Positions 19,701 to 41,076 of a stretch of 64,000 bases of DNA are shown here, piece by piece. The position numbers and the translations under genes are program-made. Source of the stretch: Pontiellaceae bacterium B1224 (GTDB lineage Bacteria; Verrucomicrobiota; Kiritimatiellia; Kiritimatiellales; Pontiellaceae). Within the stretch, counting starts at the first letter, position 1, and every line of letters begins with the position of its first letter. A model generated the notes under the pieces. That model searched no databases. It was not told the DNA's origin and worked only from the letters and a program-made list of their open reading frames with translations. The stretch is taken from NCBI GenBank assembly GCA_029432815.1, contig JAROBA010000008.1, forward strand, positions 62,001 through 126,000. Direction: 5' to 3'.

Positions 19701-22305
19701 ACCGCTGTTAACTTCTGTGTCGCGTATTGCAGCGAATTCGCCGTGTATCGGGGCGGGAAACGTGGCGTATAGCAGTGGAACTGATCTGGATGGGGAATCC
19801 TGGCTGAATCCCCCTTCTATGGGGTGCGATGAGTTCTATGCTTCCGGTTCGTTGACAGGAGAGCTCGCTGTGGCGATTGATGGCTATCCCGTCCAGCTGG
19901 CTGGTTTGCCATCGAAATTGTCTGGTGAAGTGTTCGGGGCGGCAACCATGCACATATGGGATTTCGGGGATGGGTCGGTTGCAACCAACGAATTGTTCCC
20001 GGGGCATGTATGGAATGTTTCCGGGTATTACGATGTCGTGCTGTCCGCATTTAACGACACGTATCCAGCGGGAGTATCGGTTACCCAAGCTGTCCAGGTT
20101 GTTGTCGCGGGGGATAAAGCGGTGTGGGATGGCAACGGGCATTTCTATCAGGTCATCGCCGCTCCGGACGGCATTACCTGGGTTGAGGCGAAAGCCGAGG
20201 CTACTGCTCGCGGAGGCTACCTTGCAACGCCTGTCACAGCAGATGAAAATGCCTTTATCTTTGGCATGACCCAGAGCACAAACTATTGGAATGGTTGGAA
20301 TGGCAGGAGCGGCCCGTGGCTTGGCGGCCTTCAGGTTGCTGGAGGGGGCGAACTCGGTGGCGGTTGGGCCTGGGATACGGGTGAAGCATGGTATGATGAA
20401 AGCTGGTATTGGCAAGAACCCAACAATAGCGGGGGCACCGAAAACCGAATTCAATACTGGGCTTCGACGCCCGGGTGGAATGACGCGGGGGTGGATGTTA
20501 ATGCATATGGTTATGTAGTGGAATTCCAAATCCACGAGTCCGCGACGGGCGATCTTGCGGTCGGCATCGGCGATGCCGGACGCATTGCCGTTGGCTATCC
20601 CTTGATGCTGGCCGCACGGCTCGGAGGCATGGCCACTCGGTTGGAGTGGGACTTTGCCGACGGCGTTACCGCCACAAACACCCACTATCCGGTTCATGCA
20701 TGGGATGTTCCCGGGGAGTATGATGTTGTCCTGACAGCTTTTAACTCCGACCATTCTGGCGGCATATCCGCCACCCAGACCGTCCAGGTACTTTCGCTCG
20801 CGGCTGGAACCATCCATGTTTCGACGGATGGCAATGATGCAAACGATGGTTTGGGGTGGGGTTCTGCAAAAGCAACGATAGGTGGCGGTGTGGATGCTGT
20901 CCCGGCTGGAGGAACCGTTTGGGTCAGTAACGGGACGTATGCCGTAACCGAAACGATTCTGGTTGAGAAGAACATGGAGATACGCAGTGTGAATGGGCCG
21001 GATGAAACGGTGGTCGACGGTATGGGGTCGAACCGATGTTTTCATATTGATTCGGGATCTGCTCTGCTTTCGGGTTTTACAGTTACTAATGGCTATTCTG
21101 CCGGTGACGGTGGCGGCTTGGTACTCGAATATACATCGGCGATGGTTTCGAACTGTGTGGTCGTAGGGAATACCGCCTTGGTGCGCGGAGGCGGCGTGGT
21201 AGGTGGAACATTGCATGATTGCATGCTGGAGCAGAACACCGCCGGCGGAAGCGGCGGCGGTGCCATTAGTTCAATACTATACGACTGCGTGCTGGCTCGC
21301 AATGAGGGCGGAAGCAGCGGCGGCGGTGCACAAGATTCGCGGCTCTATGGCTGCAGTATTTGGGGCAACTCGACATTGCTGGATGGTGGCGGTGTTGCGG
21401 GATCGACGGAAATTGCAGATTGCCGGATTTTTGATAATTATGCTTCGCGCCATGGTGGAGGGGTGAATTTCTCAATCGTGCGCAATAGCTATATTTCAGA
21501 AAATGAGTGCGCTTCCAAGGGCGGGGGAGCGAAAAACTCCGATCTCGTTAATTGTACACTGACAGGTAATGTTGCGGATCAGGGTGGCGGAATCTGGCAA
21601 GACTCGTCTCCCTCCATAGGGGATGCGTTCAACTCTATCGTTTTTGGTAACTCCGCAACGAATGGTGCTGCGGATGTCGGTCAGGCATCCGGCACGGTGA
21701 AGATAATCGCAAATTCCTGTGCGTCCGACATCATGGATGGTGTAAATGGCAACATCACCAATGCTCCGCTGTTTGCCGATGCCGACGGTCATTTGCAATC
21801 CAGCTCGCCCTGCATTAACTGGGGCAACAATGCACATACGAATGCTTCGTTTGATTTAGATGGCCATCCGCGCATCGTTGAGGGCTATGTCGATATGGGG
21901 TGCTACGAATTTCAGGGTATTGTCGGCAAGGCGGACTCCGACGAGGATGGCTTGCTCGACGAGTGGGAGCGGCGCTGGTTCGGTGGTAATGTGCTACCGG
22001 GTAATAACTCGGATGGCGATGGCCAATCGAATGGCGAAGAATATGTTTCGGGGACCGATCCGACCAATGCATTCTCATTCTTTACGACGGCTAATGCGAT
22101 GGCCGAGGTGAATGGTACCAATAGTTTTGTGCTAGAATGGGTTGCTATGCCCGACCGCCTCTACAGTGTGCTCTGGGCAACCAACCTGACTTCCGGTTTC
22201 CAAACATTGGAAACCGGTATTGAGCTGCCGAAAAACAGCTACACGGACACAGTACATTCTGTTGAGGAGAACGGGTATTACAAAGTAGACGTGAGGTTGA
22301 AATGA
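16744..22305 (+). CDS. Giant secreted beta-helix / PKD / C-type lectin protein
   Basis: An 1853-residue exported protein with signal peptide 1-20 (cleavage near HAWS). Modules in order: right-handed beta-helix 1 (20-400); an InlB-type B-repeat (409-479, GYEFLGWSVYP); beta-helix 2 (480-1000) containing about 15 tandem turns of the type NCTISGNTA plus GGGMYSGTA; PKD domain (1040-1115, WDFGDGS); C-type-lectin-like domain (1127-1260, WVEAKAEATARGGYLAT and WYWQEPNN); second PKD (1267-1349); beta-helix 3 (1356-1720); Asp-rich calcium-type repeats (1729-1780, DSDEDGLLDEWE, NSDGDGQSNGEE); and a C-terminal module ending YYKVDVRLK. The three helices share SVNGPDxTxVDGxGSxRCF, so the gene grew by internal duplication. 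Likely surface adhesion or polysaccharide binding. Confidence 0.88.
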   Translation: MKRIGLLLGLVGMLVGHAWSVTHYVDINNTNPTPPYATWETAASNIQDAVDVSGSNDVVVVTNGHYMLSSEIVVTNDITIQSVNGPDVTIVDGGGSSRCFNLGNSFPVLSGLTITNGFSSANGGGIYCSGLNPTVTNCVVVGNTAQSGGGICFGSVNNSVIKENTSWFGGGIYAGNAKDCIIERNEANQGGGMGGGYAFQCTFISNKTTSVGGGGGGFSSGTARECIFDGNVSSSQGGGGLLLSAVNCIFSSNSAPIGGALVISSATNCIVSGNTANVGGGAYNSTIINGTIISNSATSGAGGLYAGSAYNSIVWNNEAPAATNLANTVVSHVCSPDVAHGYDNSFTNAPLFIDELIGDFRLSSNSPCINVGSNGVISSIYDLDGNPRIVGEAVDLGAYEYQTDVPTKYILTIPGGNGSGTYTNGEVVSIEAEAVPGYEFLGWSVYPTNYIGQLSDPSALTTSLVMPGTIITLTPTYALIQSPSHYVNVSNSTPAYPYASWDTAATNIQDAVAASIGGDTIFVTNGFYLLSSEISVAKNISIQSINGPDVTIVDGGGITRCFNLGTSPCAISGLTITNGYSSDSGGGIFCNNTSQIVSNCVVTGNESDLYGGGMYNGNAIGCLIEDNIAAYGGGMIWGRAEGCIFLKNEAISGGGGMYSVTANNCTISGNTANSSGGGMYSGTANDCTISENTASIYGGGMYSGTADNCNISGNTASSDGGGMYVGTANNCTISGNTSDGHGGGVYNGTAENCTISGNAASRWGGGMYSGAAENCTINGNTASVGGGMRNGTASNCTISANTAVGSNGGGMSFGTANGCTISENTANYGGGMYGGTADNCTISGNTAASSYGGGMYNVAANNCTVSGNTARSGGGGMRSGTANNCVISGNTAGYGGGMYFGTANNCTISQNTVSGYGGGVHSGTANHCTIVGNSASYGGGMSFGEAYNSIIWYNDAASGDDLYDVIATNSCSLDLIHGEGGNITNAPLLTSVSRIAANSPCIGAGNVAYSSGTDLDGESWLNPPSMGCDEFYASGSLTGELAVAIDGYPVQLAGLPSKLSGEVFGAATMHIWDFGDGSVATNELFPGHVWNVSGYYDVVLSAFNDTYPAGVSVTQAVQVVVAGDKAVWDGNGHFYQVIAAPDGITWVEAKAEATARGGYLATPVTADENAFIFGMTQSTNYWNGWNGRSGPWLGGLQVAGGGELGGGWAWDTGEAWYDESWYWQEPNNSGGTENRIQYWASTPGWNDAGVDVNAYGYVVEFQIHESATGDLAVGIGDAGRIAVGYPLMLAARLGGMATRLEWDFADGVTATNTHYPVHAWDVPGEYDVVLTAFNSDHSGGISATQTVQVLSLAAGTIHVSTDGNDANDGLGWGSAKATIGGGVDAVPAGGTVWVSNGTYAVTETILVEKNMEIRSVNGPDETVVDGMGSNRCFHIDSGSALLSGFTVTNGYSAGDGGGLVLEYTSAMVSNCVVVGNTALVRGGGVVGGTLHDCMLEQNTAGGSGGGAISSILYDCVLARNEGGSSGGGAQDSRLYGCSIWGNSTLLDGGGVAGSTEIADCRIFDNYASRHGGGVNFSIVRNSYISENECASKGGGAKNSDLVNCTLTGNVADQGGGIWQDSSPSIGDAFNSIVFGNSATNGAADVGQASGTVKIIANSCASDIMDGVNGNITNAPLFADADGHLQSSSPCINWGNNAHTNASFDLDGHPRIVEGYVDMGCYEFQGIVGKADSDEDGLLDEWERRWFGGNVLPGNNSDGDGQSNGEEYVSGTDPTNAFSFFTTANAMAEVNGTNSFVLEWVAMPDRLYSVLWATNLTSGFQTLETGIELPKNSYTDTVHSVEENGYYKVDVRLK
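18607..19587 (+). repeat. About fifteen 60-66-bp coding tandem repeats in beta-helix 2
   Basis: Near-identical units start TGCACGATTAGCGGAAATAC and run through GGCGGCGGGATGTAC; each encodes one beta-helix turn of 20-22 residues. Sequence between turns is so similar that slippage or recombination should change copy number. The repetition also keeps antisense frames open. Confidence 0.88.
22198..22212. repeat. Dispersed palindrome, exact copy extended to 25 bp (centre ACA)
   Basis: TTCCAA-ACA-TTGGAA within the last 110 bases of the giant beta-helix gene, encoding FQTLE. Perfect pairing continues outward to 22193-22217 (arms begin CCGGT), making it the longest perfect copy I found. Confidence 0.95.
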
Positions 22306-23189: not shown

Positions 23190-24713
23190 TCACTCATCAA
23201 GTTCCGTTACCCAGACGTTGCGGTAGATGACGGGGTTGGCGTGATCCTGGAAAAAGACGGGGCCCGTGGCGAGCTGAGGACGTTCTGCGCCTGCGCCGGT
23301 TCCGGTCGGCAGTTCGACATCGTCATGAATCAGCACGCCGTTATGAAAGACCGTGAGGCGCGCATTTTTTATTTTCGTGTCGCCGTCAAACTCGGGGGCG
23401 GTGAAGTCGATGTCGTAGGTCTGCCAGCGCAGGGGCGGGTAGGCCATGTGAACGTCTGGTGTTTTCATTTTATAGAGCGAACCGCACCATTGAGAGTTCA
23501 ACGATTCCGGATTGATGGCATTGTTTTCAGAATCGAGATCCAGTCCAAAACTGTCGATCACCTGAACTTCATAGTTGTTGAAAATGTAGATTCCGCTGTT
23601 TCCCCGGTCCTGATTGGAAGGATTTCTGGCGGGTTTAAAGGGCATCAGGTATTCCAGATGCATGTGAAAAGATTCGAGGTCTTTTGCGGTTTTACCGCCG
23701 GCCATGAGGATGCCGTCTTCGACATTGGTAAAACCGTCGGGCAGCGTCAGCACCGCATCTGCAGGGGCTGGTTTTCCAAGGGTTGTGCTTACGCGTTCAA
23801 TTTTTTGATACGATGAAAGCAACTGTTTCAGTTCAGCGGCCGTCAGTTTTTTCGATTCGATTGCGGATTGATCCCAGCCATCGCCGGGCAGACCGTTCTG
23901 ATAGATCGCCACTAAAAATGTGCCGTCCTTCAGCAGATTGGCCTGTAGAGCGGTTTTTTCATCGGCGGAAACATATTCTCCAACCATTGGAAACTCCGTC
24001 ACTTCCTGAACGGCTGTTTGCGCATCGGTCCATACAGGAACGGGCGTGAGTTTTTTATCCGCATTACTTGAAGAGGCGGGAAGTTCCTGGATTCGCAGGT
24101 TCCGGAATTTATAAACCTGCCCTTTTTCTCCGTGATGCTGGATGCCGATGTGGCCTTGTGCATCCATGTCGTCGGTGTAATCCGTGCAGAGCATACCGTT
24201 CACCCAGATGCGCAGCCGGTTGCCCTCGGCCTGAATTTTAAAGTGGTTCCAGTCATGGCGCTTTAATGCACCCTTGGTTTTCTCGCGGAAGGCATCGGCT
24301 GAGGGGGAATCATCGGGCTTGAGCGGGTTCAGCCATTGTCGCCGCGCTTCATCGTAGAGGCCTCCCGACCAGGCGCGGTCGGTAGGATCAACTTCGGCCT
24401 GATAGCCATACACTTTGTTGGGTTCGACATGACAACGGAACATGAATCCGGAATTGGCCGGGCCCTCAGGCAATTTTATTTCGCCCTCGAAGATAAAGTT
24501 GGTATAGGTGTTCTCCGTGCACAGAAAAAACTTTTTGTCGGCAACGAGATGGATTTCACCATCCACAACCGTTGATTCGCCATGGTCGTAGGGGTTGGCC
24601 CAGCCTTTTAGTGTTTTTCCGTCAAAAAGCGGGGTCCAGCTTACGTCCTTTGCTTGGAGTGTTGAGCAACTGGCCAAGGTTATTGCCAGGAATGCATAGA
24701 TGTGAGTTCTCAT
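23190..24713 (-). CDS. Exported protein with two DUF1080 (3-keto-disaccharide hydrolase) domains
   Basis: A 507-residue protein with signal peptide 1-21 and two PF06439 jelly-roll domains: residues 25-210 (WTPLFDGKTLKGWANP, GEIKLPEGPANSGFMFRC, YGYQAEVD, RIWVNGMLCTDY) and about 345-507 (FHMHLEYLMPF, NSGIYIFNNYEVQVIDSFG, ARLTVFHNGVLIHDD). Domains of this family hydrolyse 3-keto-glycosides made by oxidoreductases, which fits the divergent neighbour, a Tat-exported Gfo/Idh enzyme. GGAGGTAGGCACT precedes the ATG. The 130-residue link between domains is unassigned. Confidence 0.85.
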   Translation of the reverse strand: MRTHIYAFLAITLASCSTLQAKDVSWTPLFDGKTLKGWANPYDHGESTVVDGEIHLVADKKFFLCTENTYTNFIFEGEIKLPEGPANSGFMFRCHVEPNKVYGYQAEVDPTDRAWSGGLYDEARRQWLNPLKPDDSPSADAFREKTKGALKRHDWNHFKIQAEGNRLRIWVNGMLCTDYTDDMDAQGHIGIQHHGEKGQVYKFRNLRIQELPASSSNADKKLTPVPVWTDAQTAVQEVTEFPMVGEYVSADEKTALQANLLKDGTFLVAIYQNGLPGDGWDQSAIESKKLTAAELKQLLSSYQKIERVSTTLGKPAPADAVLTLPDGFTNVEDGILMAGGKTAKDLESFHMHLEYLMPFKPARNPSNQDRGNSGIYIFNNYEVQVIDSFGLDLDSENNAINPESLNSQWCGSLYKMKTPDVHMAYPPLRWQTYDIDFTAPEFDGDTKIKNARLTVFHNGVLIHDDVELPTGTGAGAERPQLATGPVFFQDHANPVIYRNVWVTELDE

Positions 24714-24854: not shown

Positions 24855-26258
24855 ATGAATATTTCTCGAAGATACACCCTCGGAGCCGCCGGCGCACTGG
24901 CGGGTTGGTCGCTCATTCCCGGTAAAGTTCTCGGAGCCAATAAAAAGGTTAACCTTGCCGCGATCGGCATCGGTCCACAGGGCGGTAATATCCTGAAAAT
25001 CTTTGCGCAGGATCCGAACGTGAACATCGTAGCACTTTGCGATGTGGATATTGACAGTGATTCGCCGATCGCGAAACTGCCTGATTACCGGGATCAAGGT
25101 TGGGGGAATGCTGATGCCACGCCGGCAGCGCACGCGGCCCTGTTTCCGGGCGTTCCCCAATTCCATGATTTTCGGGAAATGTTCGATCAAATGAGCAACC
25201 AGATCGATGCCGTTTGTATCGGAGTTCCCGACCATTCTCATTTCCCGATTGCCATGGCTTCCATGATGCTTGGAAAACACGTTTATGTTGAAAAACCGCT
25301 GGCCCGCACCTTTCAGGAATGTGAACTGCTGATGAAGGCGGAAAAGAAATACGGCGTAGTTACCCAAATGGGAAATCAGGGGCATTCGGGAAATAATTAC
25401 TTTCAGTTTAAAGCCTGGAAAGATGCAGGAATCATTAAAGACGTCACGCACGTGGATGCGCAGATGAATAATCCTCGTCGATGGCACACCTGGGGCGAAG
25501 TAACCGGTTTCCCGACCGGAGGCGTTATTCCCGATGGGATGAACTGGAATGTATGGGAAGGCACCACGCCGATATCGGTGGAGTTCAGCAAAAAGCTGCA
25601 TTATGGAAACTGGCGCGGCTGGCATCAATTTGGAACCGGCTGCTTTGGCGACTGGGGGGCCCATATTCTGGATACGATTCATGAGTTTTTAGAGCTCGGA
25701 TTGCCGTCAACATTCTCAGCGGAAATGATGACGGGGCGAAATGATTTTATTTTCCCGATGACTTCCACCATCAATTTTAAATTTCCGGCGCGTAAGGGCA
25801 TGCCGGCCATGGATATTAATTGGTACGATGGGCAGGGTAATGCGGCTCCGGTTCCAAAAGGTGCAGAGGGTGAAAAGTTGAAGGGACCTGGTAAATATAT
25901 CTACTCAAAGGACTATACGTTCATGGGAGGAAGCCACTCAGATACCCTTCAGATTGTACCCTACGAAAAAATGCGGGAATTGTTGAAAGAAGGAAAATTG
26001 CCGAAAGTTTCCGCTAAAGGGAAATCCACCCACCATGAAAACTTTATCCGGGCTTGCATGGGGGAAGAAAAAACACGTTCTCCCTTCTCCGTTTCCGGGA
26101 CGCTTTCTCAGATGTTTACATTAGGCTGTATGGCGCAACGCTTGGGAGGATCGTTTGAGTTTGATCGCGAGACCAAGCAGATTACCAATAACAAACTGGC
26201 GAACAGTCTGCTGAAAGATGATGTCCGCAATGGCTGGGAGCAGTATTACAAGGTGTAA
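24855..26258 (+). CDS. Tat-exported Gfo/Idh/MocA family oxidoreductase
   Basis: A 467-residue protein with a twin-arginine signal (SRRYTLGAAGALAG), an N-terminal Rossmann fold (VNLAAIGIGPQGGNILKIFAQ), the DHSHFPIAMASMMLGKHVYVEKPLARTFQE block with the catalytic EKP lysine, and the C-terminal Bac_GFO_IDH domain. Start chosen at ATG 24855 because it places the Tat motif at the N-terminus. Tat export with bound NAD(H) is known for such enzymes, some of which oxidise sugar C3 hydroxyls. Divergent from a DUF1080 protein, it may supply the 3-keto substrate. Confidence 0.87.
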   Translation: MNISRRYTLGAAGALAGWSLIPGKVLGANKKVNLAAIGIGPQGGNILKIFAQDPNVNIVALCDVDIDSDSPIAKLPDYRDQGWGNADATPAAHAALFPGVPQFHDFREMFDQMSNQIDAVCIGVPDHSHFPIAMASMMLGKHVYVEKPLARTFQECELLMKAEKKYGVVTQMGNQGHSGNNYFQFKAWKDAGIIKDVTHVDAQMNNPRRWHTWGEVTGFPTGGVIPDGMNWNVWEGTTPISVEFSKKLHYGNWRGWHQFGTGCFGDWGAHILDTIHEFLELGLPSTFSAEMMTGRNDFIFPMTSTINFKFPARKGMPAMDINWYDGQGNAAPVPKGAEGEKLKGPGKYIYSKDYTFMGGSHSDTLQIVPYEKMRELLKEGKLPKVSAKGKSTHHENFIRACMGEEKTRSPFSVSGTLSQMFTLGCMAQRLGGSFEFDRETKQITNNKLANSLLKDDVRNGWEQYYKV

Positions 26259-26374: not shown

Positions 26375-27454
26375 TTAGATGCCATCCGCCATCGCCTGCG
26401 CCCGCATCGACAGCTCGGCGGCTTTAAACGTGCGCTCCTGCGTCATCGCATTTTCAGTGCGGTTGATGCTGTCTAGAATTAAGTCGCCGAAGAAGGGAAA
26501 GCCGGTGTTATCCAGACATTGGATTTCCAGTTCCTCCGTTCCATTTACCAGAAAAATCTTACTGGCCGGAGCCGCTCGGGCGACATCCATATATTTTCGT
26601 GCTTCCAGTGTGCCTTCGGTGCCCATCACAAATGTGCGGCCATCGCCCCAGCTGGCCGATCCATCCGGCGTAAACCAGTCGATGCGGCAGTAGAACGAAG
26701 CACCGTTATCGGCCGTCAGGGATACTTCTCCAAAATCTTCCAATCCCGGCTTGTCGGGATTATTGAAGTTTTCAACGCGGGCAAAATTGATCGTAGCATC
26801 TTTCGCGCCCGTGTAGGAAAGGAACTGCTCAAACTGATGCGAACCGATATCGGTCAGGATGCCGCCGTATTTTTCCTTATCAAAAAACCAATCGGGGCGC
26901 GTTTCTTTTGCCAGACGGTGCGGTGCAAGATTGACGACCTGTAACACGCGGCCAACCGCACCATCGGCAATCAGCTTCCCGGCACGCATGCCGGCTTCGT
27001 TATGCAGCCGCTCACTGAAGTAGACCATGTATTTCTTCCCCGTCTCTGCCACGACGTTTCGCGCTTGCTCAAGCTGATCGAGGGTGGTGAACGGGGACTT
27101 GTCGGTGAAATAGTCTTTGCCGGCTTCCAATGCCTGGAAACCGATGCCCGCGCGTTCGGAAGGAATGGCCGCCGATGCGACCATTTTGATTTCGGGATCA
27201 TTCAGAATTTGCTCATACGATTCCGCGGCCTGTGCTTCCGGGTTTTTCTTGATAAATGCGGCCAGCCGTTTTGGATCGGGATCGTAAGCCCATTTCAGGG
27301 TTGCGCCGGCATCTTTCAGCCCATTGGTCTGACCATAGATATGGCCGTGGTCCAGAAACGCGGAGGCGAACATAAATTCTCGGGGCTCAACGACCTTTTC
27401 CGTTTCAGCAGTCGGCGCATAGTCCGCTCCGCTGGCAATCTGATGTTTGTTCAT
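26375..27454 (-). CDS. Gfo/Idh/MocA family oxidoreductase
   Basis: A 359-residue cytosolic enzyme without a signal sequence. The Rossmann glycine motif is replaced by the shorter ASAFLDHGHIYGQTNGLKDAG, as in a subgroup of the family. The EAGKDYFTDKSPF block (usual EKP) carries DKS instead of EKP, so the catalytic lysine is kept but its neighbours are changed. GGILTDIGSHQFEQFL is the second conserved segment. It is the last gene of a three-gene minus-strand unit with a second Gfo/Idh gene (9-bp gap) and an Nramp-fold transporter. Likely role: NAD(P)-dependent sugar or polyol oxidation; substrate unknown. Confidence 0.85.
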   Translation of the reverse strand: MNKHQIASGADYAPTAETEKVVEPREFMFASAFLDHGHIYGQTNGLKDAGATLKWAYDPDPKRLAAFIKKNPEAQAAESYEQILNDPEIKMVASAAIPSERAGIGFQALEAGKDYFTDKSPFTTLDQLEQARNVVAETGKKYMVYFSERLHNEAGMRAGKLIADGAVGRVLQVVNLAPHRLAKETRPDWFFDKEKYGGILTDIGSHQFEQFLSYTGAKDATINFARVENFNNPDKPGLEDFGEVSLTADNGASFYCRIDWFTPDGSASWGDGRTFVMGTEGTLEARKYMDVARAAPASKIFLVNGTEELEIQCLDNTGFPFFGDLILDSINRTENAMTQERTFKAAELSMRAQAMADGI

Positions 27455-27463
27455 AAAAATTTC

Positions 27464-28609
27464 CTATCGGTACGATTTCGACATATCGACCTTAGCTGCA
27501 GTCTTGAGCACTTTGCGTGGTTTGGACTGTGCAATTTTTTCCTGAATAGCTTTTTCATACGCAGCGCCATTCAGTGGCAGGCAGACTATGTCATCGATCC
27601 ATGTCGAATAAATCATGGCGCCGGCGAGCTCGAGGGAGTTCAATCCATCGGTCGCCGGAGCAATCAGTTCCGCTTTACCAGTTGCGGCCTGAACGACGTT
27701 ATTCAGAATGGCCACGTGCTGGTTAACGGTTTCCAAGGGTTGGAAAATCTCTTCGGATATATCCGGGGTTCCAAACATTTCATCGGTGGCTTTGCTGAAC
27801 GCGGATACGGATTCGCTGGTGCGGATCAGCTTCACTTCATTCCCATCGGTGATGATTGTGCCGAGATCGCCGACGATTTCGAGACGGTTGGAGCCGGGGC
27901 ATTCGCCGGTACTGGCGGCAAACTGTCCGGTTGCACCATTGGCGAATTCAAAATAGGCGTTCACTTCGTCTTCCACTTCAATATCGTGGTATTTACCGAA
28001 GGAGCATTGGGCGCGTACCTTGGTCGGCATACCAACGAGCCATTGCAGGACATCGATATTGTGTGGACATTGATTCATCAGCATACCGCCGCCTTCACCT
28101 TTCCAGGTGGCACGCCACGGGCTGGATGCATAATAGATTTCCGGGCGGAACCAGTTCGTCATGGTCCAGGATACGCGTTGCAATTCCCCCAGCGCACCTT
28201 CATCGATCCACTGCTTGATCTTAACGTAGCAGGGATGCGTGCGCTGATTCATCATCAGCGCCACAATCTGATCATCGCGCTGTTTCGCTGCCAGAATCCG
28301 TTCGCCTTCCGCCTTATGGCAGGCGAGGGGTTTTTCCATAATCAGGTGCAGCCCGGCTTCCAATGCCTGGATACCGACCGGGGCGTGCAGATAGGTGGGA
28401 AGCGCCACAATCACGGCGTCGCACAAGCCGGATTCAATCAGCTCCGAAGCATCGCCGAAGCAGGTAATTTTCTGTTCTTTAAAATCGTCTATGGACTCGA
28501 TCGGCTGGTTGGCCACGGCCACCAGTTCGGCGCCCTCAATGAGTCCGTCCTGTATGTTCTTTGCATGCACGCGGCCAATATTTCCGAGCCCGATAATTCC
28601 GAATTTCAT
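27464..28609 (-). CDS. Gfo/Idh/MocA family oxidoreductase
   Basis: A 381-residue enzyme with canonical N-terminus MKFGIIGLGNIGRVHAKNI (GxGxxG), LPTYLHAPVGIQALEAGLHLIMEKPLACH with the EKP catalytic block (about residues 90-110), and GGGMLMNQCPHNIDVLQWLVG with the active-site His. Its C-terminal domain resembles myo-inositol dehydrogenase/1,5-anhydrofructose reductase types. It lies between the Nramp-fold transporter and the second Gfo/Idh gene. A 549-codon antisense open frame overlaps it and is not considered real. Confidence 0.88.
   Translation of the reverse strand: MKFGIIGLGNIGRVHAKNIQDGLIEGAELVAVANQPIESIDDFKEQKITCFGDASELIESGLCDAVIVALPTYLHAPVGIQALEAGLHLIMEKPLACHKAEGERILAAKQRDDQIVALMMNQRTHPCYVKIKQWIDEGALGELQRVSWTMTNWFRPEIYYASSPWRATWKGEGGGMLMNQCPHNIDVLQWLVGMPTKVRAQCSFGKYHDIEVEDEVNAYFEFANGATGQFAASTGECPGSNRLEIVGDLGTIITDGNEVKLIRTSESVSAFSKATDEMFGTPDISEEIFQPLETVNQHVAILNNVVQAATGKAELIAPATDGLNSLELAGAMIYSTWIDDIVCLPLNGAAYEKAIQEKIAQSKPRKVLKTAAKVDMSKSYR
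27731..27745. repeat. Dispersed palindrome, exact copy (centre GGG)
   Basis: TTCCAA-GGG-TTGGAA inside the Gfo/Idh gene, encoding FQPLE. Confidence 0.95.
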
Positions 28610-28686: not shown

Positions 28687-30396
28687 TCATAGATTAGGCT
28701 TTTTTTTGCGTACGAAATGAACAATCACCGCGAGGGCAATGAAGCCGACAAGTATCCAGATTCCTGTCCATTGAAGTTTCGACCACAAGCTGTAGAAGCT
28801 GCCGAACGAAGCGAGGCCGGCCGCAACCAGCATGGCCGTATTCCAGGCAATGCGTTTGCCTCCGGTCGGCATATTTTCTTTGAGCAGGCTCTTCGAGTTC
28901 ATAAGCAGGAAAAATGAAAAATAGGCGATGGGAAGCAACACCATGCCGAAGACGGAGGTGGGTACGGCAAGCCAGAATCGCGCCTTGGCCTGGCCCCAGA
29001 CAAAGGGTCCGATGACGCCAATCAGCGGCATCATTGCTCCTAGTTTATAGGTGAGCCCGTGCATTGGTTTATTGGCGATTTCGCAGATCACAAAGCCGTT
29101 GATTAACATCAGGACGATGATCGTGGAAACGGCCATGCCTGTTACGCCAAAACCGAAAATGGCATTGGCCACCGTACTTCCGGTGAGCGGTGCGAGGCTT
29201 TGAGCGAGTTGGCCGGCATCGCGTTTGACGAGCATCGCGGCCATGCGGCGGTCGGATACGGGGAGGTCGGCGATCTTTTTATCGAGCTGTTCCGGTGAAA
29301 GGGCAACAACGGCATCCGGACCAAGTTCCACTGTAAGACGTTGTGTCGCCAGCCCTTTGTATTGGGCAAGCAATCCACCGGCCGGTTTGATGAGCTGCCC
29401 ATTCGCATCTTTCTCGCCCAGCAGACCCGGCGCGGGTTGGGCATGAAATTGGCTCGAGGCCACAATCACAATGCAGCTGGTAACCAAAAGGAAGGGAATG
29501 AAAAGACCGGTGCTGAGATCGAAGATGGCCATACCGCGGAAATCCTTGTCCCATCCGCGCTTCAGCATGGAGTAGGGAAGGAGAAGTGTCATGTTGATCC
29601 CGACGGCGGTGGCCGCTGCCCCGATCATCACATCACGTTGCTGGGCAACAATCAGGCCGGTCCAGAAATCACGCATATTATCAGCCACAGCAGCAAGTGC
29701 TGGATCAAAGCTTGCAGCAGGCTTTGAGAGCAAAGACAGGTTCGGGACATAGCCTGACCAGATTTCTCGCCATGGCAGTGCATCACTGCTGTTGGCCAAT
29801 TTAACCACAACGCCGAAGAATGAAATAACAACCATTCCCACAACGGCTTTCAGCATCCAGTCGAAAACTTTGACTCCTTTTTTACCGCTGTCGTAGGACC
29901 AGACAAACGTGACGGCGATGGCCGCGATTACCAGGCAGATGATGGTTTGAGCCGTACCGGCCGACATAGCGCCTTCGCCGAAAACGCCCGGCATCAGATT
30001 TTGGCGGGTGGCGGCGGTGGCCAGATTAAACTGCGGCAAAGACCATACACAATTGGCTAGCAGGGTGGCGATAATCCAGCCCCAACCAAGCACCGGATTG
30101 ACATGCCTGTTGATGGCCCTGAAGGGTTTTTCGCCGGTAGAAAGGGTGACGTAGCCAATTGCGCTGAGCATGATGACTCCCATAATCATGGCAATGGGTT
30201 GCAACCAAAGGAAAGCAAAGCCGCCGAGTACGCCCAGATATAAGGCCGTCGCCAGCGATCCACCCCCGAGGGTAATCGCGCTTTGCAACCATCCGGGCCC
30301 AGATAACTTCACAAAGGCCTTCAGCGTGGCGCCTTTTCCTTGCTTGCGAGCGTTGTTAATAAGCTCCCGATTGCTTTCTACGGATGACGGCTCCAT
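28687..30396 (-). CDS. Nramp-fold transporter lacking the metal-binding motifs
   Basis: A 569-residue protein with 11-12 membrane helices and the Nramp opening GPGWLQSAITL. In canonical Nramp the next residues are DPGN, whose Asp and Asn bind the metal; here they are GGGS (44-47). The helix-6 MPHN motif is replaced by LPYS (about 274-277). A roughly 90-residue soluble insertion (about 315-405) between later helices is also unusual. The substrate is therefore probably not Mn2+ or Fe2+. It heads the unit with two Gfo/Idh oxidoreductases, suggesting uptake of an organic compound. AAGGAAATGCC precedes the ATG. Confidence 0.82.
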   Translation of the reverse strand: MEPSSVESNRELINNARKQGKGATLKAFVKLSGPGWLQSAITLGGGSLATALYLGVLGGFAFLWLQPIAMIMGVIMLSAIGYVTLSTGEKPFRAINRHVNPVLGWGWIIATLLANCVWSLPQFNLATAATRQNLMPGVFGEGAMSAGTAQTIICLVIAAIAVTFVWSYDSGKKGVKVFDWMLKAVVGMVVISFFGVVVKLANSSDALPWREIWSGYVPNLSLLSKPAASFDPALAAVADNMRDFWTGLIVAQQRDVMIGAAATAVGINMTLLLPYSMLKRGWDKDFRGMAIFDLSTGLFIPFLLVTSCIVIVASSQFHAQPAPGLLGEKDANGQLIKPAGGLLAQYKGLATQRLTVELGPDAVVALSPEQLDKKIADLPVSDRRMAAMLVKRDAGQLAQSLAPLTGSTVANAIFGFGVTGMAVSTIIVLMLINGFVICEIANKPMHGLTYKLGAMMPLIGVIGPFVWGQAKARFWLAVPTSVFGMVLLPIAYFSFFLLMNSKSLLKENMPTGGKRIAWNTAMLVAAGLASFGSFYSLWSKLQWTGIWILVGFIALAVIVHFVRKKKPNL

Positions 30397-30422: not shown

Positions 30423-30437
30423 ATGACATAATGTCAT
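30423..30437. promoter_or_regulatory. Candidate operator upstream of the Nramp-fold/Gfo-Idh unit
   Basis: ATGACAT-A-ATGTCAT, 7-base perfect arms around a single base, centred 34 bases before the transporter start. Size and symmetry suit a GntR- or similar dimeric repressor; no regulator gene is adjacent. Confidence 0.5.
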
Positions 30438-31835: not shown

Positions 31836-32426
31836 CTATTGCTCTTTTTTGCCGGCCAGAATGTTTTCCAGATACAGATCGAAATAGTTCCAGTCTTCAT
31901 CCGCTGGATTTGGGATGAGTGGTTTTTCGTTGTGCAGTGGGTCATTTTCGATCCAGAGGTTGTCTAGGTTGAAAATATAGCCCGGTTGAGCAAAAAAATT
32001 ATAATCAGGGGATAAATTGAGCCCCCTCCATTTTTGGGAACGGGAGGTTAGCGGGAACTCGTCTTTAATTTTAAAATCGGCTTTAGAAATTTTCAGCACC
32101 TTGCGCAGGCCTATGCCCGGATAGTGCATGATATAATGGGACTCACCTTTGCTCCCCATATATTTGTATAAGTCTGCGATGGAGCACTGCTGGTAGTTTG
32201 GAACAGGGATTGCCTGTATCTCTTTGGCATACAGGGTGTCGGGCAGATTTAAAGCAATGGATGTATTCTGATAGGACGCTTTACCGGCATAGGCTGTTCC
32301 ATACCCGCTGACCAACACGGGTAATGCAGTAGTAGCCGATGCTGACAGCGCAACATCTTTTGCATCGTGAGTCGTGCACCCTGCAATACATGACAGGGCG
32401 AATAACCAGATAAAACGTTTATTCAT
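31836..32426 (-). CDS. Putative lipoprotein of unknown function
   Basis: A 196-residue protein with a lipoprotein signal (residues 1-16, IAGC lipobox with C16), followed by 180 residues I cannot place in a family. It contains several short aromatic strands (PDYNFFAQPGYIFNLDNLW) and no catalytic motif. The start overlaps the stop of the 1256-residue transglutaminase gene by 4 bp, so it is probably produced with it and may anchor or assist it at the outer membrane. Confidence 0.7.
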   Translation of the reverse strand: MNKRFIWLFALSCIAGCTTHDAKDVALSASATTALPVLVSGYGTAYAGKASYQNTSIALNLPDTLYAKEIQAIPVPNYQQCSIADLYKYMGSKGESHYIMHYPGIGLRKVLKISKADFKIKDEFPLTSRSQKWRGLNLSPDYNFFAQPGYIFNLDNLWIENDPLHNEKPLIPNPADEDWNYFDLYLENILAGKKEQ

Positions 32427-35400
32427 CGACTACTTTTCTTTTTAAGCAGAATGGTGTGCATGTCGGGGTGGGAGAGCTTTTTTGAGGCGGCGATGATCTT
32501 CGGGAAATCTTCGGAGGGAATCAGGGCCGGTTTCAGATCGGTCATCTGTACCATGCGGATGGCGTTGGCGCGCGGGGAATATTCCACTGCAATTTCAACC
32601 ATGCCGGCCCCGTTGGGGGCCTGCCAGGAAAAGGAGTTCGGCATAATGACCGGTTCGTAGCCGTCGGGCAGGATAATATTATATTCCGTAATGCTGTCGA
32701 CATAGTTGCCCCAGGCGAGCGGGAGCGTGCGTTCGTTGGAACGGTATTTCAGCAGGCCGCCCAGTCCGCCGGGAACTGCGAAATAGAGGTAGTCCCCGTC
32801 CTGTACCGCATAGCGATCCGCCACGATGGAAAATTCAATTTTGCCGGGATAGGTGTCGTGCAGGGTGATTAGTTCCGATGCGGCAGTGGCCGACTGCGAG
32901 ACCCCTGATACAATTTCCAGATAGTGCCGGCGTAGCTTTTCAGGCGTGATTTCGGAATACCGCTGATTGAAACCTTCGAAGGCCGTTCCCTGCACCACAC
33001 CGCTTTGCGTCATACCAGCCTGTCCATCGGCCGCAATGCTGATTTCATAAACGGTGTGCGAACGGTTTTCTTTGTCCGGATCGACTTTGAGCTGGCTGGT
33101 GGTGCCCTTGCTGAGGTTCAGCTGAACGCGGCGGTCGTAGGGAGAGGTTCCGAGTTCTGCATACTGGGACGAGCCGTTCATATAGACGGTTTCGCCAGCC
33201 ACTTTAACTTTCACCAGGACCGAACTGAATGCACTGCGGGAAGGGATCGAAAGCAACGGTTCGGCCGCTTCCGGAATCAGGGAAACCGCACCGGACAGGA
33301 TGAATTCAGGATTAAATCCAGCGGACTTCAGCAAGGTGTAGAGCAGGATCATCCGGTCGGGGTTGTTTCCGTATCGATCCTTCAGCGTCACGTCGGCATC
33401 CGAAATCGCGGAGAGCGGAAGGCTGGTGAGTCCGGGGCCGGCCTCGCGAATATTTTTTGCAATCCAATCGCGAATGGCGACGGCTTTGGAAGTTTCATCC
33501 GCAGCACCCTCGGTGATCTGTTCGGCCAGCTGTTCCGCTTCCGGTTGATCTACGGTGGCGGCCAGCAACGCATTGCGTACGGTGTTGCCATAGGTTTTCC
33601 AATCACTGGAAGAAATAAAGACGGTGGGGTTGAAGGTATACCAGGGGGGCAGTGCCTCTTCTGTTTCAACGGGCGGCTGGTTTTCAGCTTTCCAGACATA
33701 GGAAATCGTCCCGTCGCTTTCCGTGCGGGTTTCTGCAATGCCCGTATTGCGGATCTTCAGATCCATCGTCGACGGGGCAGAGAGGGTCACGGTTTTAAGG
33801 TCGACCGGTTCATGTCCATTGAACGACTGCGCGGTGGAGAAGAAGGGCTTGCCATCTACGGTGGAAGTAAATTCATATTCCAGCACACTGCCGATTTCAA
33901 CACCCGGGAGATTGGCCACGAGCAGTTTTTCAGCGGGATAACGCGGTGCTGAAGAGACCCAGCCGGCATCCATAATGTTGAGTTCGTCTTCGCCCAGTTT
34001 TTTTACCGACCCATCGGGATGGGTTACCTGCGCTTTGGTCAGCTCGATGTTCTGCCACGCGGGGTTATAGGCCAGCTTGATTTCGGAATTTGCCTTCTTA
34101 CCGCCATAGGTCAGAATTTCAACACGGGAGTTTTGGGTCTCTTTCCAAACACTGGAACTTTCCAGTTCGATCCGTGTGTCGCGCGAAAGAATACGGACGT
34201 CGGGCTTAATGGAACTTCCAGGGATTGGAAGATCGAGGATCAGCTTCTTTCGCAGGTTGTATTCAATTCCCTTCAGGCTGTCTTTCAAAACCAGATATTG
34301 CTCCGGAGTAAACTCAACCGCGTTCAGCAGGAAGGTGTTCGTCGCGGTCAGCATTCCTTCGTTTTGGGCCACCTGAACATTCCAGCTCAGCTCGTCGCCA
34401 TCAATGGCGGTATACTCCGGAATATTGAGGGTTCCGATATCGTCCGGAATGTTGAGTTCCAGCGTTTCGCGAATCCCGGCCGTCATGCGGGTGTAGAGCG
34501 GATACTTGCGCTTCTCGAGTCCGGTCTGGCCGATCAGGAAATTGGCATAGCCGAGCGAACTTCCAAGCTTTGGAAGAACCAGCATCTTATTCTGTTCGCC
34601 TTCAATCAGCAGATTGTCCGCCGAATAGGAAAGGTTCACCGTCAGCGGCTGCGTCGTATCGCGCAGCTCCTTCGGCAGAATTTCCAACGATTGGAGCTCG
34701 GCGGTCGGCATGGAACGTTTGAGGTGCGATTCAAAAAACTGGCGGCGCTCTTCGGGTTTAATCTTGGAAAAATAGCCGCGGTAGACAGTGTCGTTAATGC
34801 CTTCAAAAATCATCGAGCTTTGTGCTTCCAGATTGCCGGCTTTATCGAGCGAGCCCGATGAGGTGATCTTCAGCAGGTTGTCTTCCGCCGGAATGATGGG
34901 GGAGGTGAGCAGCGTTTCGCCTTCGGGGCGCGCCACGATATAACTCATATTCTGCAGATAGGTCGGGAAAATATCTTTGGTATTTTCGTCGGTCGAATCC
35001 ATCAGAATATATTCACCGTCATCGCCCAGCGCCGCCGTAACCGCGTGGTTGAAAAACGGCTGGGGGACTTCTTCATCTTTCTTCGGTCCGGCCATGATGA
35101 TGACCGGAAAGGCTTCTACATCCACAATCCGCAACATGGCGGCGAGCAGCGCGGCTTTATCGCGACAGACGCCATAGCGGTTGGAGAAGGTCATGCTGAC
35201 ATCGTGCGGTTCATATCCCGGCGCCTCGTCTTCGGTGGTAATGCCCATGTAGCGGATATCCTGCGAAACAAAATTAAACACTGCGTTGATTTTTTCCATG
35301 GTGTTGGTGGCACCCTCCACCAACTCATGCGCCTTGGCTTCCATTTCCGGGGTGGTGGATTCCAGACGCGGCAGGCAGAGGTCCCAATACCATTTGGAAA

Positions 35401-36193
35401 GGTCCTCCCAGTTTTCCATCGTGCTGATCAGCAGGCGTTGCACCACAGTGTAGGGTGCCGGCATGTCCGGCTCTTCAAACATGCGCGGAACATCATTCAC
35501 TTCCCACGTATAAACAATTTGGTCGCTCTGCTCGGTCTTCATTTCGTTGAAGGTTACAGTGCCTTCAATTTCGCTCTTCAATGCCGTTTTAACCAGCGGC
35601 TTTTCCTTCGGAGCAATCACCTGGAAGGTCATGCGCTCATAAGGCGTGCTCGATTCAAAGGTCTGGTATTCGCTGAACGTTCCGGGAACAATAGCTTTAT
35701 GGCGCAGACGCCGGATGACATAACGTAGCGTGTCGCCCACTTCCATTCCCGGAATCGACAGCGTCAACCGCTTCGAGTTTGGATTGTAAATGTTGGCGCT
35801 CATCTGGCTCGAGTCCACCATCACTTTGCTGTTGGCTTCCGGATCGATCTCAACCACAGAACCGTCCGGCTTGATCAGTTGAACCCGCTCGAAATAGTTG
35901 GTTCCATAAGCCACATCAAAACCAAGCGTCATGGTGCGCTGGCTGCGCTTTCCTTTTTCCGTCAGAATCTTCACCGCCGTGTCGTCCCACGAATCGGACG
36001 AGCCGTCGGTCTGATATTCCACCTGAATAAAATCATCCAGCAGAACCTCATCCGAATCAGGATATTTTTCGATGGTCGCGGCGGCCGCCTGAACCTTGAT
36101 GGTTTCCAGGTCCAGGAACTCCTTGGCGGAAAGCGGGGAGAGGGTCAGAAAAACGGATAAAACAATCAGGCCGGCGCGCATCAAAGGTGTCAT
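32423..36193 (-). CDS. Exported double DUF3857/transglutaminase-like protein
   Basis: A 1256-residue protein with signal peptide 1-23. First half: DUF3857 beta domain (about 50-260) and a transglutaminase-like core with C343 (RYGVCRDKA), H383 (FFNHAV) and D399 (LMDSTDEN). Second half repeats the plan: DUF3857-like (about 680-880) and a transglutaminase-like core (about 890-1010) in which the equivalent of C343 is N944 (RYGNNPDRM) and the His strand reads FSSVLVKV, so it is a non-catalytic copy. Family members act as periplasmic proteases or crosslinking-type enzymes. ATG 36193 follows GGAGATTTGT; the ATG at 36205 contains that ribosome site. Confidence 0.87.
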   Translation of the reverse strand: MTPLMRAGLIVLSVFLTLSPLSAKEFLDLETIKVQAAAATIEKYPDSDEVLLDDFIQVEYQTDGSSDSWDDTAVKILTEKGKRSQRTMTLGFDVAYGTNYFERVQLIKPDGSVVEIDPEANSKVMVDSSQMSANIYNPNSKRLTLSIPGMEVGDTLRYVIRRLRHKAIVPGTFSEYQTFESSTPYERMTFQVIAPKEKPLVKTALKSEIEGTVTFNEMKTEQSDQIVYTWEVNDVPRMFEEPDMPAPYTVVQRLLISTMENWEDLSKWYWDLCLPRLESTTPEMEAKAHELVEGATNTMEKINAVFNFVSQDIRYMGITTEDEAPGYEPHDVSMTFSNRYGVCRDKAALLAAMLRIVDVEAFPVIIMAGPKKDEEVPQPFFNHAVTAALGDDGEYILMDSTDENTKDIFPTYLQNMSYIVARPEGETLLTSPIIPAEDNLLKITSSGSLDKAGNLEAQSSMIFEGINDTVYRGYFSKIKPEERRQFFESHLKRSMPTAELQSLEILPKELRDTTQPLTVNLSYSADNLLIEGEQNKMLVLPKLGSSLGYANFLIGQTGLEKRKYPLYTRMTAGIRETLELNIPDDIGTLNIPEYTAIDGDELSWNVQVAQNEGMLTATNTFLLNAVEFTPEQYLVLKDSLKGIEYNLRKKLILDLPIPGSSIKPDVRILSRDTRIELESSSVWKETQNSRVEILTYGGKKANSEIKLAYNPAWQNIELTKAQVTHPDGSVKKLGEDELNIMDAGWVSSAPRYPAEKLLVANLPGVEIGSVLEYEFTSTVDGKPFFSTAQSFNGHEPVDLKTVTLSAPSTMDLKIRNTGIAETRTESDGTISYVWKAENQPPVETEEALPPWYTFNPTVFISSSDWKTYGNTVRNALLAATVDQPEAEQLAEQITEGAADETSKAVAIRDWIAKNIREAGPGLTSLPLSAISDADVTLKDRYGNNPDRMILLYTLLKSAGFNPEFILSGAVSLIPEAAEPLLSIPSRSAFSSVLVKVKVAGETVYMNGSSQYAELGTSPYDRRVQLNLSKGTTSQLKVDPDKENRSHTVYEISIAADGQAGMTQSGVVQGTAFEGFNQRYSEITPEKLRRHYLEIVSGVSQSATAASELITLHDTYPGKIEFSIVADRYAVQDGDYLYFAVPGGLGGLLKYRSNERTLPLAWGNYVDSITEYNIILPDGYEPVIMPNSFSWQAPNGAGMVEIAVEYSPRANAIRMVQMTDLKPALIPSEDFPKIIAASKKLSHPDMHTILLKKKSSR
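34561..34575. repeat. Dispersed palindrome, exact copy (centre GCT)
   Basis: TTCCAA-GCT-TTGGAA in the transglutaminase gene, encoding LPKLG. Near copies lie within 420 bases on both sides (34143, 34216, 34682). Confidence 0.95.
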
Positions 36194-36295
36194 ACAAATC
36201 TCCATAATAAAAAACTCCGGAAAATCTACCCTTCGGTAACCTTTCCCGCAAACTCTTTCTATGGACCAGCGCTGGCGTCAGGCGTTGAAAACGAT

Positions 36296-36368: not shown

Positions 36369-39300
36369 CTACCCGTTCAGCTGTTTCACCACGCGATACA
36401 GTTCCGTGACGCCCCAGGCCTGGGCACCGCATCCGCGCTGGATGTGCGGCGTGTTGCCGTCGATCACTTCCGGGCTTTGGCGCAGACATCCGTGGTTCAG
36501 CACATCGGAGGCGCTTCCGAGAATGGCCAGTGCGGTTTCACGAGCGGCGTCGCCATAGATCATCACCAGCGCTTCGGCATACGACGGGAAGGGCCACGTC
36601 CAGGCCGTACCGTTATGATAGGCCGGTTTGCGGCGGGTATCTTCATCGCCGGTGTAGTGACCCCAATAGGGATTCTGCGGATCGTTCAGCAGATGCCCGT
36701 CGTTGTAAACAGGGCAGGGGTGCTGAACGGGACGATCCGCCAGACTGCGGATCGCGCCGGGGATCAGGAGCTGTTCACAGGCGGCGAGTATATTTTTGCA
36801 TAGGTTGGAATCCGTAACCGCCCCGAGCGTCACCGCCAGCAGCTGGTTCGAGCGAAGCGCATCGTCAACCTCGGCGTCGCGGGCACCGGTGCCCGGCGCG
36901 CAGGCCAGACAGTCGGCCAGATACGTAAAGTCGGCGGCCTCCACCAGGAAGAGTTCGCTGATGGATTGTTCCACCTGGCCCGCCAGCGTTTTCCAATCGT
37001 TGGATTTATCGAGTTTCGTCAGCATGTTCAGCGCATATTTCCACATCGACTGAATTTCAATCGGATAGCCCATACGCGGCGTGCCGGCCGGATAGTTGGT
37101 ATCCATCCAGGTGTAGTGCGACGGGCTGAAAATCAGGCCGGAGTCGGGATCGAATGTAATGCCATTTTCGGTGCCCTTCATCAGTCCCTTGGCGAGTGCA
37201 ATAAGCACTTGCTTCACGGTGCGCCCATCACCGCAGTTGGCCTGGAGCAGTTTTTTATTGCCCTGCGCCTGCATCAGTTCGTCACAGGCGACATAGAGCC
37301 AGAGCGGCGCATCGGATGTCTCGCGGTTGTTATCGTCATTACCGCGGATCATATTCGGAATGGTTCCGCCTTTTTCATACTTCGCAAACTGCAGCAGAAT
37401 GTTCTGCGCCTCTTCAAGGAAGCCGGCCGCAATGATACCGCGCAGGCAGATCAGGGTGTCGCGGCCCCAGTCGAGGAACCACGGGTAGCCGGCGATGACG
37501 GTCTGGAAATCGTCGCGCTTCACGATGAACTGCTTCATGGCGAGCTTCATCGCGTCTTCAATCGAAACGGTATCCTCTTTAACAGCCAGCGTCGGTTTTC
37601 CAAAGGTTGGAACTTTGCCGATGGAGGCCACCAGTTCGGCCATCTGTTTTCCTTTAAGCTCGACTTTGAAATAGCCCGGGCTGAACAGATCCGACTCGCC
37701 GTCGATGCCGCGCGCCTGGTCGACCGGATGGCCGATCATATAATACCACTCCGGCTCGGAATGAAATTCGCCGCCCTTGAGCGATACGTTCAGTTTCCGA
37801 TCATTGGAAGGCGCAAAGACATAGCCATCTTCCTTTGGTTGGATGGCGTGCGGCCAATGTCCCTGCGGGCCGTTCATGGCTTTGGTGACTTCGTGGTTGT
37901 TGCGGTCTTCAATGTCGGTCCGCAGAATCAGCGAGACTGGCAGTTTGTTCGCAAGGTGTTCCGGATCGTTGCCGGCATCGCCGCGCACAAAGCTCATTTT
38001 AATGGCGTTGGTGTCGGGGTGCAGCTGCAGGGTAACCTTCAGTGGAATCAGCTGGCCTTCGCCGACCGGCACTGCAAAATCCCAGATCACGGTACCGTCG
38101 TCGGCCACCGAAAAACGTTTTTGGCAATGCAGCGAAAGTTCATTGGAATAGTCGCGGCAAACCACCCAGGCGCGGCATCGCGTCAGCATGGTGTGACGAT
38201 CCACCGGAACCTCATTGTGCAGGTTAGCAATCAGCAGCCCGTCGTATTTGCTGCACAGCTCCGCCCAGCCGATGCGTACCTGCGAAAGGGCCCCGTGTTC
38301 GTTGGTGCAGACGGCATAGCGATCGCGATCGTGTACTTCGCCGGCAAGGCAGGTGGTGATGACCGTCGCGTTCTTTTCTTCGCACAGCTGCATGATCGGC
38401 GATTCCGCATGCCGGATTCCGTCCGCTTCAAATACGGTCAGCTTCAGCGTAAGCGTCTGGTGAGTCTCCGGCGTTTCCAATGGTTGGAAAAGTGCGAAGA
38501 TTTCGCCGCTGTTCTGCTGCATTGATTTTTCGTGAGCCAGCGTTTCGCCCGCCTCGTTTTTCAGCTCGGCAATAAATCCGCACGGCGCTTTCACTAGCAG
38601 GAAATGCTGCGGGGGCAGCAACACAGTACGCCGTGTATCCTGCGGCCACTTCCAGTTGCTCACCACCGGTGCGCCCGCGGCAAGCTCTTCGCAGAGTTCT
38701 TTGGGGTCGTTAAGAAAACGGTTCGCGTTGAACTGTTCCAATGCCTGGAAATGCTCGAACACATCCATGGCTTTGGCTTTGAGGAGCTGTGCTTTGCTGG
38801 CTTCGGCTCCAGAGAAGGGGGTTTCCAATGCTTGGAACGTACGGTTCACCCATTCCAGATCGTCGGTCAGGCAGACCACTTCGCCGGGCTGAAGGTGATA
38901 GGAGCTGTGTCGATGCTCCACGGGGCTTCCTGTCAGGAGATCCGTTTTAAACGCGCCGAAGTCGCCGCGCCATTCGATACTGCAGTCGGTTTCGTGGTTC
39001 AGGTTGGTGAGTACCAGCAGGCGGTTTTTACCGGTGGCATCCGTGCGGAGTACCGCCACGGAGTTGTGATAGTTTTCGGTGATAAGCTCAACCCGCCCGC
39101 CGGCATGGAACGACGGGTGGACTTCCATGATGGCGTGGATACGGCGGATCCAGTCGATCAGATTCGGCTCAGCGCCCCAGTTGAGCGAATGCGCATTGTG
39201 GACGTTGATCTGTGTATCGGCATACCATTCCACCCCGTTGGCAAACCCGAAGGCGCCGTTGTGGGTGGTGAGCGCGCAGAAGGCCACGCGCATGCGGGCA

Positions 39301-40574: not shown

Positions 40575-41076
40575 GAAAAACCCCTTTTTTTTAAAATTCC
40601 AATGATGGTGGAAAACTTCGGGTTTTATAGGGGCAAACCGTTCCAATGTCTGGAAAAAAGGGTGGAGACTTTAAGGTTTTGGTTTTGCGTGTACTTTTAG
40701 AGCTGCACCGAACTGAAGCAATTTTGAACCTGTAGGTGCATTCCACAATCTTTGGGAAATGGACACCATTTGTGAAAAGTCCGCTTGTTAAACTGCAAGG
40801 TATTTTTTTAATTCTCTCGCAGGAAAGCAATTCGTGCATATAACTGTTATGTATTTGTCAGGGGCATGAATCTGGCGAACGCCTAATAGCATCGGAAACC
40901 TCAGAAACCGAAGTTCAATACATTAACTTTTATCATCGACGGATTTAAATATGCTCTTGATAAAATACCGGATATCATTATCATATTCATCATGAAAGCG
41001 CAACCCGGACGATTGATCGGGGCGTGTGCCCCCATCGCCTGAAAGCGACTTCCTGTTCAGTCAACATGGAGGCATT
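40575..41076. other. Non-coding gap between divergent genes
   Basis: About 500 bases, AT-richer than the genes, between the debranching enzyme and the Ycf48-like protein. It holds a near copy of the dispersed palindrome (40641-40655), a possible promoter TTGATA-16-TATCAT around 40960-40990, and a short GGGGCGTGTGCCCC hairpin near 41019. I see no gene or recognisable riboswitch. Confidence 0.6.

Follow-up and report, generated by a model that had tools for sequence, protein, structure and literature searches.

Nramps are the textbook carriers of metal ions, and members of PF01566 tend towards annotation as divalent metal transporters. A gene in the window, by which we mean the whole 64,000-nucleotide stretch of DNA from Pontiellaceae bacterium B1224 that was analyzed, raises the question of what such a protein carries when its metal-coordinating signatures are replaced and its neighbours encode sugar-type oxidoreductases. 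The original prediction, made from the DNA letters and their reading frames, was a transporter that might belong to an uncharacterised branch carrying organic solutes. The predicted reading frame is real and lies on the minus strand (Table 1). Its 569-aa product is the sole PF01566 member found in the genome and is 89% and 88% identical to its nearest named relatives, in Pontiellaceae bacteria B12219 and B12227. No relatives were found in the viral contigs or in the plasmids that were searched.

Table 1 Features of the Nramp-fold transporter gene and its surroundings (positions in the window).
Feature	Position	Strand	Basis
Nramp-fold transporter gene, GGGS clade, 569 aa	28687..30396	minus (30396..28687)	ORF, PF01566, AlphaFold model
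GGGS, residues 44-47, DPGN slot of TM1	30256..30267	minus	gap-free alignment; break of TM1 at 43-44 in the model
LPYS, residues 273-276, probable MPHN slot of TM6	29569..29580	minus	follows the helix break at 270-271 in the model
Insertion in the TM7-TM8 loop, about residues 317-406, forming helices in the model	29179..29448	minus	model and clade comparison
gfo1, Gfo/Idh oxidoreductase, next gene downstream, 77 bp gap	27464..28609	minus	Pfam
gfo2, second Gfo/Idh oxidoreductase, same operon, 9 bp gap	26375..27454	minus	Pfam
gfo3, third Gfo/Idh protein (C2-type), faces the operon	24855..26258	plus	Pfam
Double 3-keto-disaccharide hydrolase (DUF1080) protein	23190..24713	minus	PF06439, E 7.5e-69, two stretches
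Palindrome ATGACATAATGTCAT, candidate operator	30423..30437		perfect palindrome ATGACAT-A-ATGTCAT

The Pfam Nramp model PF01566 recognised the protein with 53.9 bits at a curated cut-off of 29.8, which places it within the superfamily, and the scores for the NCBIfam Nramp models were below the cut-offs (31 bits versus 50 for NF037982 and 17.6 versus 272.5 for TIGR01197). Since phmmer and profile searches of the PDB sequences with the protein returned almost no matches, the fold was established via a predicted structure. The AlphaFold model (pLDDT 82.6, pTM 0.82) was compared with known structures using VIA-align, giving Z 40.1 to outward-open DraNramp (6D91), Z 34 to EleNRMT and Z 33 to the YcsG model 9a52. 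All of the 24 best matches were structures or models from the Nramp family (Nramp, NRMT, NRAT, YcsG), and the best match outside the family was AdiC with Z 28.8. The model shows the Nramp version of the LeuT fold, in agreement with the Pfam score and with what had been proposed from the reading frame.

For TM1 the alignment to canonical Nramps brings GGGS into a gap-free register with DPGN (GPGWLQSAITLGGGS compared with GPGYLVAVGYMDPGN). The helix reads GPGWLQSAITLGGGSL here and GPGYLVAVGYMDPGNW in canonical Nramps of the same phylum, again ungapped, and GGGS can therefore be placed at DPGN, as had been suggested. The motif is nearly invariant: across the 43 rows from the GGGS clade that cover it, G44, G45 and S47 never change and G46 is changed once (G to N, giving GGNS). 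The clade thus lacks the DPGN that defines canonical SLC11 proteins in TM1, the changes in this part of the pocket being D to G and N to S. In TM3 the canonical Glu of the proton path, another mark of the canonical proteins, is aligned with Gln122 in 43 of 43 rows of the clade. Neither the GGGS clade nor its sister group shows any change at Q38, T42, S47, Q122 or N268, and no conserved Arg or Lys is located inside TM1 or TM6 of the GGGS-clade protein.

The register of TM6 rests on the helix break in the model, because hhalign against canonical Nramps placed TM1 and TM7 correctly but misplaced TM6, and MAFFT alone aligned the canonical MPHN with GINM (residues 266-269). In the model TM6 is broken at 270-271, directly before LPYS, and in DraNramp the MPH motif closes the unwound region of TM6 (PMC6398981); together these two observations favour the LPYS register. 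The predicted LPYS is thus the likelier counterpart of MPHN as judged from the model, although sequence alignment alone does not fix the register. Where canonical proteins have Met and His, the window protein has L273 and Y275 in the LPYS register and G266 and N268 in the GINM register, so that the MPH of canonical SLC11 proteins is replaced by LPY or GIN, respectively, and the claim that both metal signatures are gone holds for either register. In the preferred register the site is devoid of Met and His. Asp, Glu, His and Cys do not occur at the TM1/TM6 site at all, and Met is absent from its canonical position. Judged from the alignments, the residues of the metal site and the proton path have been lost.

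The model places TM7 at residues 284-316 and TM8 at 407-440, separated by a loop of about 90 residues with helices at 340-358, 360-364, 368-376, 380-388 and 394-405. In the Nramp topology this loop is extracellular. An insertion of this size had been foreseen and is indeed present, but it is not peculiar to the window protein, since the loop measures 58-113 residues throughout the GGGS clade, whereas canonical Nramps have 23-24 and the sister group 26-36.

The tree collects the 43 GGGS proteins in one clade (98), which is joined with the small sister group at 100, and the canonical Nramps in another (100), with the remaining PF01566 proteins outside. Only these three branches are used here, the deep branches being long and of unsure order. 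The GGGS proteins form a monophyletic group distinct from the canonical Nramps; the tree thus bears out the branch proposed by the original prediction, while the organic solutes assigned to it are deduced from genomic context. The sister group carries GAGS, GASS or GGGS in TM1, and its transporters are about 30-40% identical to the GGGS transporters over the aligned parts. Other PF01566 groups of the phylum show further TM1 variants (GGSH, GTGS, GAGD and DPSG), in agreement with the diversity at the motifs already published for Nramp-related proteins (PMC12873925, PMC9606685). The contig search yielded 29 loci, all only fairly close relatives because a single protein and not a profile was used as query. 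Some loci deserve mention on their own. At L040:6204-9728 of Planctomycetales ZRK34, a GGGS gene has a sister-group gene (GAGS) as its direct neighbour, the two being divergently transcribed; L151:11097-11279 (G127) contains a remnant of a GGGS-type gene with 72% identity over about 60 residues and an in-frame TGA; and the PF01566 proteins of L116-L118, about 790-815 aa in length, read GTGS in TM1 and end in a long C-terminal extension.

The genes next to the transporter were surveyed in 19 loci from the window genome and 17 other searched genomes, covering 8 families, with neighbours assigned by tblastn using reference proteins. This survey, suggested together with the prediction itself, gave a clear result. 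In 11 of the 19 loci the transporter gene is followed directly, on its own strand and at a distance of no more than about 110 bp, by the start of a Gfo/Idh gene; given how many Gfo/Idh genes each genome contains, 0.05 such loci would be expected. Such a locus was present in 6 of the 8 families (p about 1.5e-12 by family, to be read as an order of magnitude only, like the other linkage p values, since the chance model assumes random gene placement at about 0.85 genes per kb). The linkage to Gfo/Idh genes is conserved and far above chance. Outside the Pontiellaceae the partner belongs to one group, 55-87% identical to the copy in L104 and often followed by a TIM-barrel gene. The nearest solved structures of this partner are 3q2k and 3q2i (E 2e-49 and 4e-50), which we take to be WlbA proteins that oxidise C3 of UDP-N-acetylglucosaminuronate, a UDP-linked uronic acid. 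The partner in the lineage of the window is from a different group, about 30% identical to the former.

Within the window the two sugar-type oxidoreductases noticed at the outset, gfo1 and gfo2, are Gfo/Idh proteins according to Pfam, and a third, gfo3, lies close by. The best solved relative of gfo1 is the glucuronide-3-dehydrogenase 8TDI (E 3.8e-62). The nearest solved relatives of gfo2, 2p2s and 3u3x, are labelled merely as oxidoreductases, and gfo2 is retained in the family. The GGGS gene precedes gfo1 and gfo2 in the window genome and its two nearest relatives, with the order conserved in loci L033 and L034, and gfo3 recurs close to the operon in Pontiellaceae. Seven other Pontiellaceae genomes instead have gfo1, a sister-group Nramp-like gene and gfo2 on one strand, preceded immediately in L146 by UxaC and a ROK regulator. 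That two divergent carriers of the same fold occupy one operon suggests that the carrier belongs to the pathway. The protein families of the 3-keto pathway (Gfo/Idh, DUF1080, xylose-isomerase-like TIM barrel and ThuA) are found beside the gene in L036, L038, L057 and L103-L107, and the DUF1080 protein of the window recurs near GGGS-clade genes in other loci. In Planctomycetota most loci are without such a context, L036 being the exception.

The candidate operator of the original prediction is a perfect palindrome, ATGACATAATGTCAT, which by eye overlaps the -10 element of a promoter-like TTGACG-N17-CATTAT. It is conserved in L033 except for the centre base and half-kept in L034. Co-regulation of the operon and the UxaC cluster of the genome through this palindrome was tested and rejected, since a search of the whole genome that allowed up to one mismatch returned this single site. 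The sister-type operons (L142-L149) show a loose palindrome, TTGTNA-N7-TNACAA, upstream of gfo1 when inspected by eye, and often lie beside a ROK regulator gene. Elsewhere in the window, positions 16744-22305 (plus strand) encode a protein of 1853 aa in which repeats of the type GGGMYSGTANNCTISGNTA (beta-helix-like) are numerous and other stretches resemble PKD or lectin domains, again judged by eye; 32423-36205 (minus strand) encode a 1260-aa protein with DUF3857 and transglutaminase-like domains, two matches each; and 36369-40646 (minus strand) encode a 1425-aa protein with an alpha-amylase-type domain and a glycogen-debranching domain (GDE_N, GDE_C).

A second linkage concerns the catabolism of uronates. 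UxaC, the glucuronate isomerase, is encoded within 7 kb of the gene in 6 of the 19 loci compared to 0.08 expected, in 4 of the 8 families (p about 5e-7, as an order of magnitude), and also adjoins it in the planctomycete locus L036. Mere co-occurrence in a genome adds little, since UxaC is present in 210 of 288 sampled genomes of the phylum (73%), the GGGS clade being accompanied by UxaC in 24 of 24 genomes (p 3e-4). Uronate genes, UxaC together with SDR, LarA-like, 6PGD or kinase genes, flank the transporter gene in L094, L097, L098, L099 and L102. In L094 they are all on one strand in the order UxaC, LarA-like, SDR, 6PGD, PFK and Nramp-like gene, and L098 and L099 contain genes for DUF7133, TIM-barrel, Gfo/Idh, sulfatase, Nramp-like and DUF1080 proteins, an AraC-type regulator, a LarA-like protein, a kinase, an SDR and UxaC.

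The genome of the window itself has a cluster (L141:3281-10091, C193) with PfkB, 6PGD, LarA-like, a second 6PGD and UxaC genes one after the other and with UxuA on the opposite strand. It is a uronate route that may proceed through a nickel-dependent epimerase. On the shared contig about 60 kb separate its UxaC gene from the Nramp-like gene, a distance that counts against the uronate reading, and no solute transporter is found within the cluster. Among the relatives of LarA are D-gluconate 2-epimerases that form D-gluconate from D-mannonate, and one group of these relatives is tied to uronic acid genes (PMC7583248); on this basis the clusters plausibly run from glucuronate over fructuronate, mannonate and gluconate to 6-phosphogluconate. 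Pontiella strains utilise glucuronate, but a transporter dedicated to it was not identified (PMC7356697).

How could these pieces fit together? The protein would be a secondary carrier of the Nramp/LeuT fold in which a glycine-rich, uncharged site stands where the metal site was, and it would take up an acidic sugar, either D-glucuronate or a glucuronide. The partner Gfo/Idh enzyme would oxidise the imported sugar at C3, the DUF1080 and TIM-barrel proteins would then cleave or rearrange the product, and UxaC, a reductase, a LarA-type epimerase, a kinase and 6-phosphogluconate dehydrogenase would deliver it to central metabolism. In LeuT and APC carriers the glycines of the unwound TM1 bind carboxylate through backbone amides, and by analogy we infer that the GGGS turn may hold the carboxylate in the same way, as we infer the substrate and the direction of transport from context. 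Import of some organic solute of the 3-keto pathway is what we regard as very probable; D-glucuronate or a glucuronide as that solute is a choice towards which the genomic context inclines us slightly. The organic solute first proposed thus remains the best reading and has been narrowed to uronates and glucuronides, with genomic context as its basis.

The same pathway could be served by a carrier of a neutral glycoside, a disaccharide or a 3-keto product, because the substrates of Gfo/Idh and DUF1080 enzymes include many glycosides. The generic 3-keto partners in L036, L038, L057 and L103-L107, several of which are without UxaC nearby, agree with a neutral substrate, and so does the absence of a conserved Arg or Lys from the two helices of the site. 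The linkage to UxaC far above chance and the glucuronide-3-dehydrogenase as the best solved relative of gfo1 speak for an acidic one, and we find a neutral substrate unlikely. A further point against the main reading comes from Caulobacter, where a DUF1080 protein carries a putative signal peptide, so that its keto-sugar may be cleaved outside the cytoplasm (PMC9007349). Export of a by-product such as an aglycone or a keto-sugar, or a role as substrate sensor, we consider very improbable: the sequence does not reveal a direction, but the position in the operon and the uronate cluster devoid of a transporter favour import, and Pfam detects no signalling domain in the protein.

A divalent-metal importer (Mn2+, Mg2+ or other) with an altered site, feeding the TIM-barrel isomerases and other enzymes of the operon, would be in line with the fold itself and with the NRMTs, which carry Mg2+ via an altered site (PMC8806188). 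YcsG from B. subtilis is a warning here: it was annotated as a 5-oxoproline importer from its 5-oxoprolinase operon and later reported to import Mn2+, raising the cellular level (PMC10448178), showing that operon context can mislead on the substrate. However, even the NRMTs keep the Asp of TM1 (DxxG, PMC8806188), which is Gly here, and the TM1/TM6 site lacks Asp, Glu, His and Cys, with no Met at the canonical position. FeoB is present in the window genome, and the gene that travels with the transporter in Verrucomicrobiota families encodes a Gfo/Idh dehydrogenase. Enzymes of this type are NAD(P)-dependent and need no metal. Metal import therefore appears quite improbable to us, less so than export or sensing.

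Returning to the import of D-glucuronate or a glucuronide, we consider it an evenly balanced matter whether this extends to a full evolutionary account, in which an Nramp branch of Verrucomicrobiota, Kiritimatiellota and Planctomycetota has converted the metal site to one for carboxylates or sugars and supplies the missing glucuronate or glucuronide importer of a 3-keto uronide pathway, with two divergent lineages interchanging in one operon. If true, the Nramp fold would be shown to change substrate class from metal to sugar acids, annotations in genomes of Verrucomicrobiota and Planctomycetota would be corrected, and the stated gap in Pontiella, glucuronate use with no identified transporter, would be filled.

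Comparison with known systems puts the protein in perspective. The enzyme families of 3-keto-glycoside clusters (Gfo/Idh, DUF1080, TIM barrel and ThuA) are found beside the carrier here; to our knowledge no such cluster has been described with an Nramp-fold carrier, and none was found in the literature searched. With canonical Nramp/MntH proteins (SLC11) the window protein shares the fold, the GPG at the start of TM1 and a conserved Asp at the start of TM7, but it differs by the absence of DPGN and MPH, the Glu to Gln change in TM3, the long TM7-TM8 insertion and its separate clade. EleNRMT has in common with it the fold, an altered metal site and, if the structural register is right, a Thr in TM6. 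The NRMT signature of DxxG in TM1 and TxxA/T in TM6 (PMC8806188) corresponds to GxxS and, at best, TxxL in the window protein, and the NRMT-like proteins L114 and L115 (DPSG) are located elsewhere in the tree than the GGGS clade. The orphan or outgroup PF01566 proteins of Cellier are likewise without the metal and proton residues (PMC9606685, PMC10606218), a likeness by description only, and four invariant Gly in TM3 are a trait of that clade. Divergent Nramp-related proteins are thus already known, and organic cargo has a precedent in PxpT of Corynebacterium glutamicum, placed in the Nramp family and required for growth on 5-oxoproline (PMC13274462). The partner genes of PxpT/YcsG differ from those found here, the substrate of YcsG is disputed, and its model is structurally no closer to the window protein than canonical Nramps, but PxpT/YcsG is, like the window gene, an Nramp-family carrier encoded in an operon for the catabolism of an organic acid.
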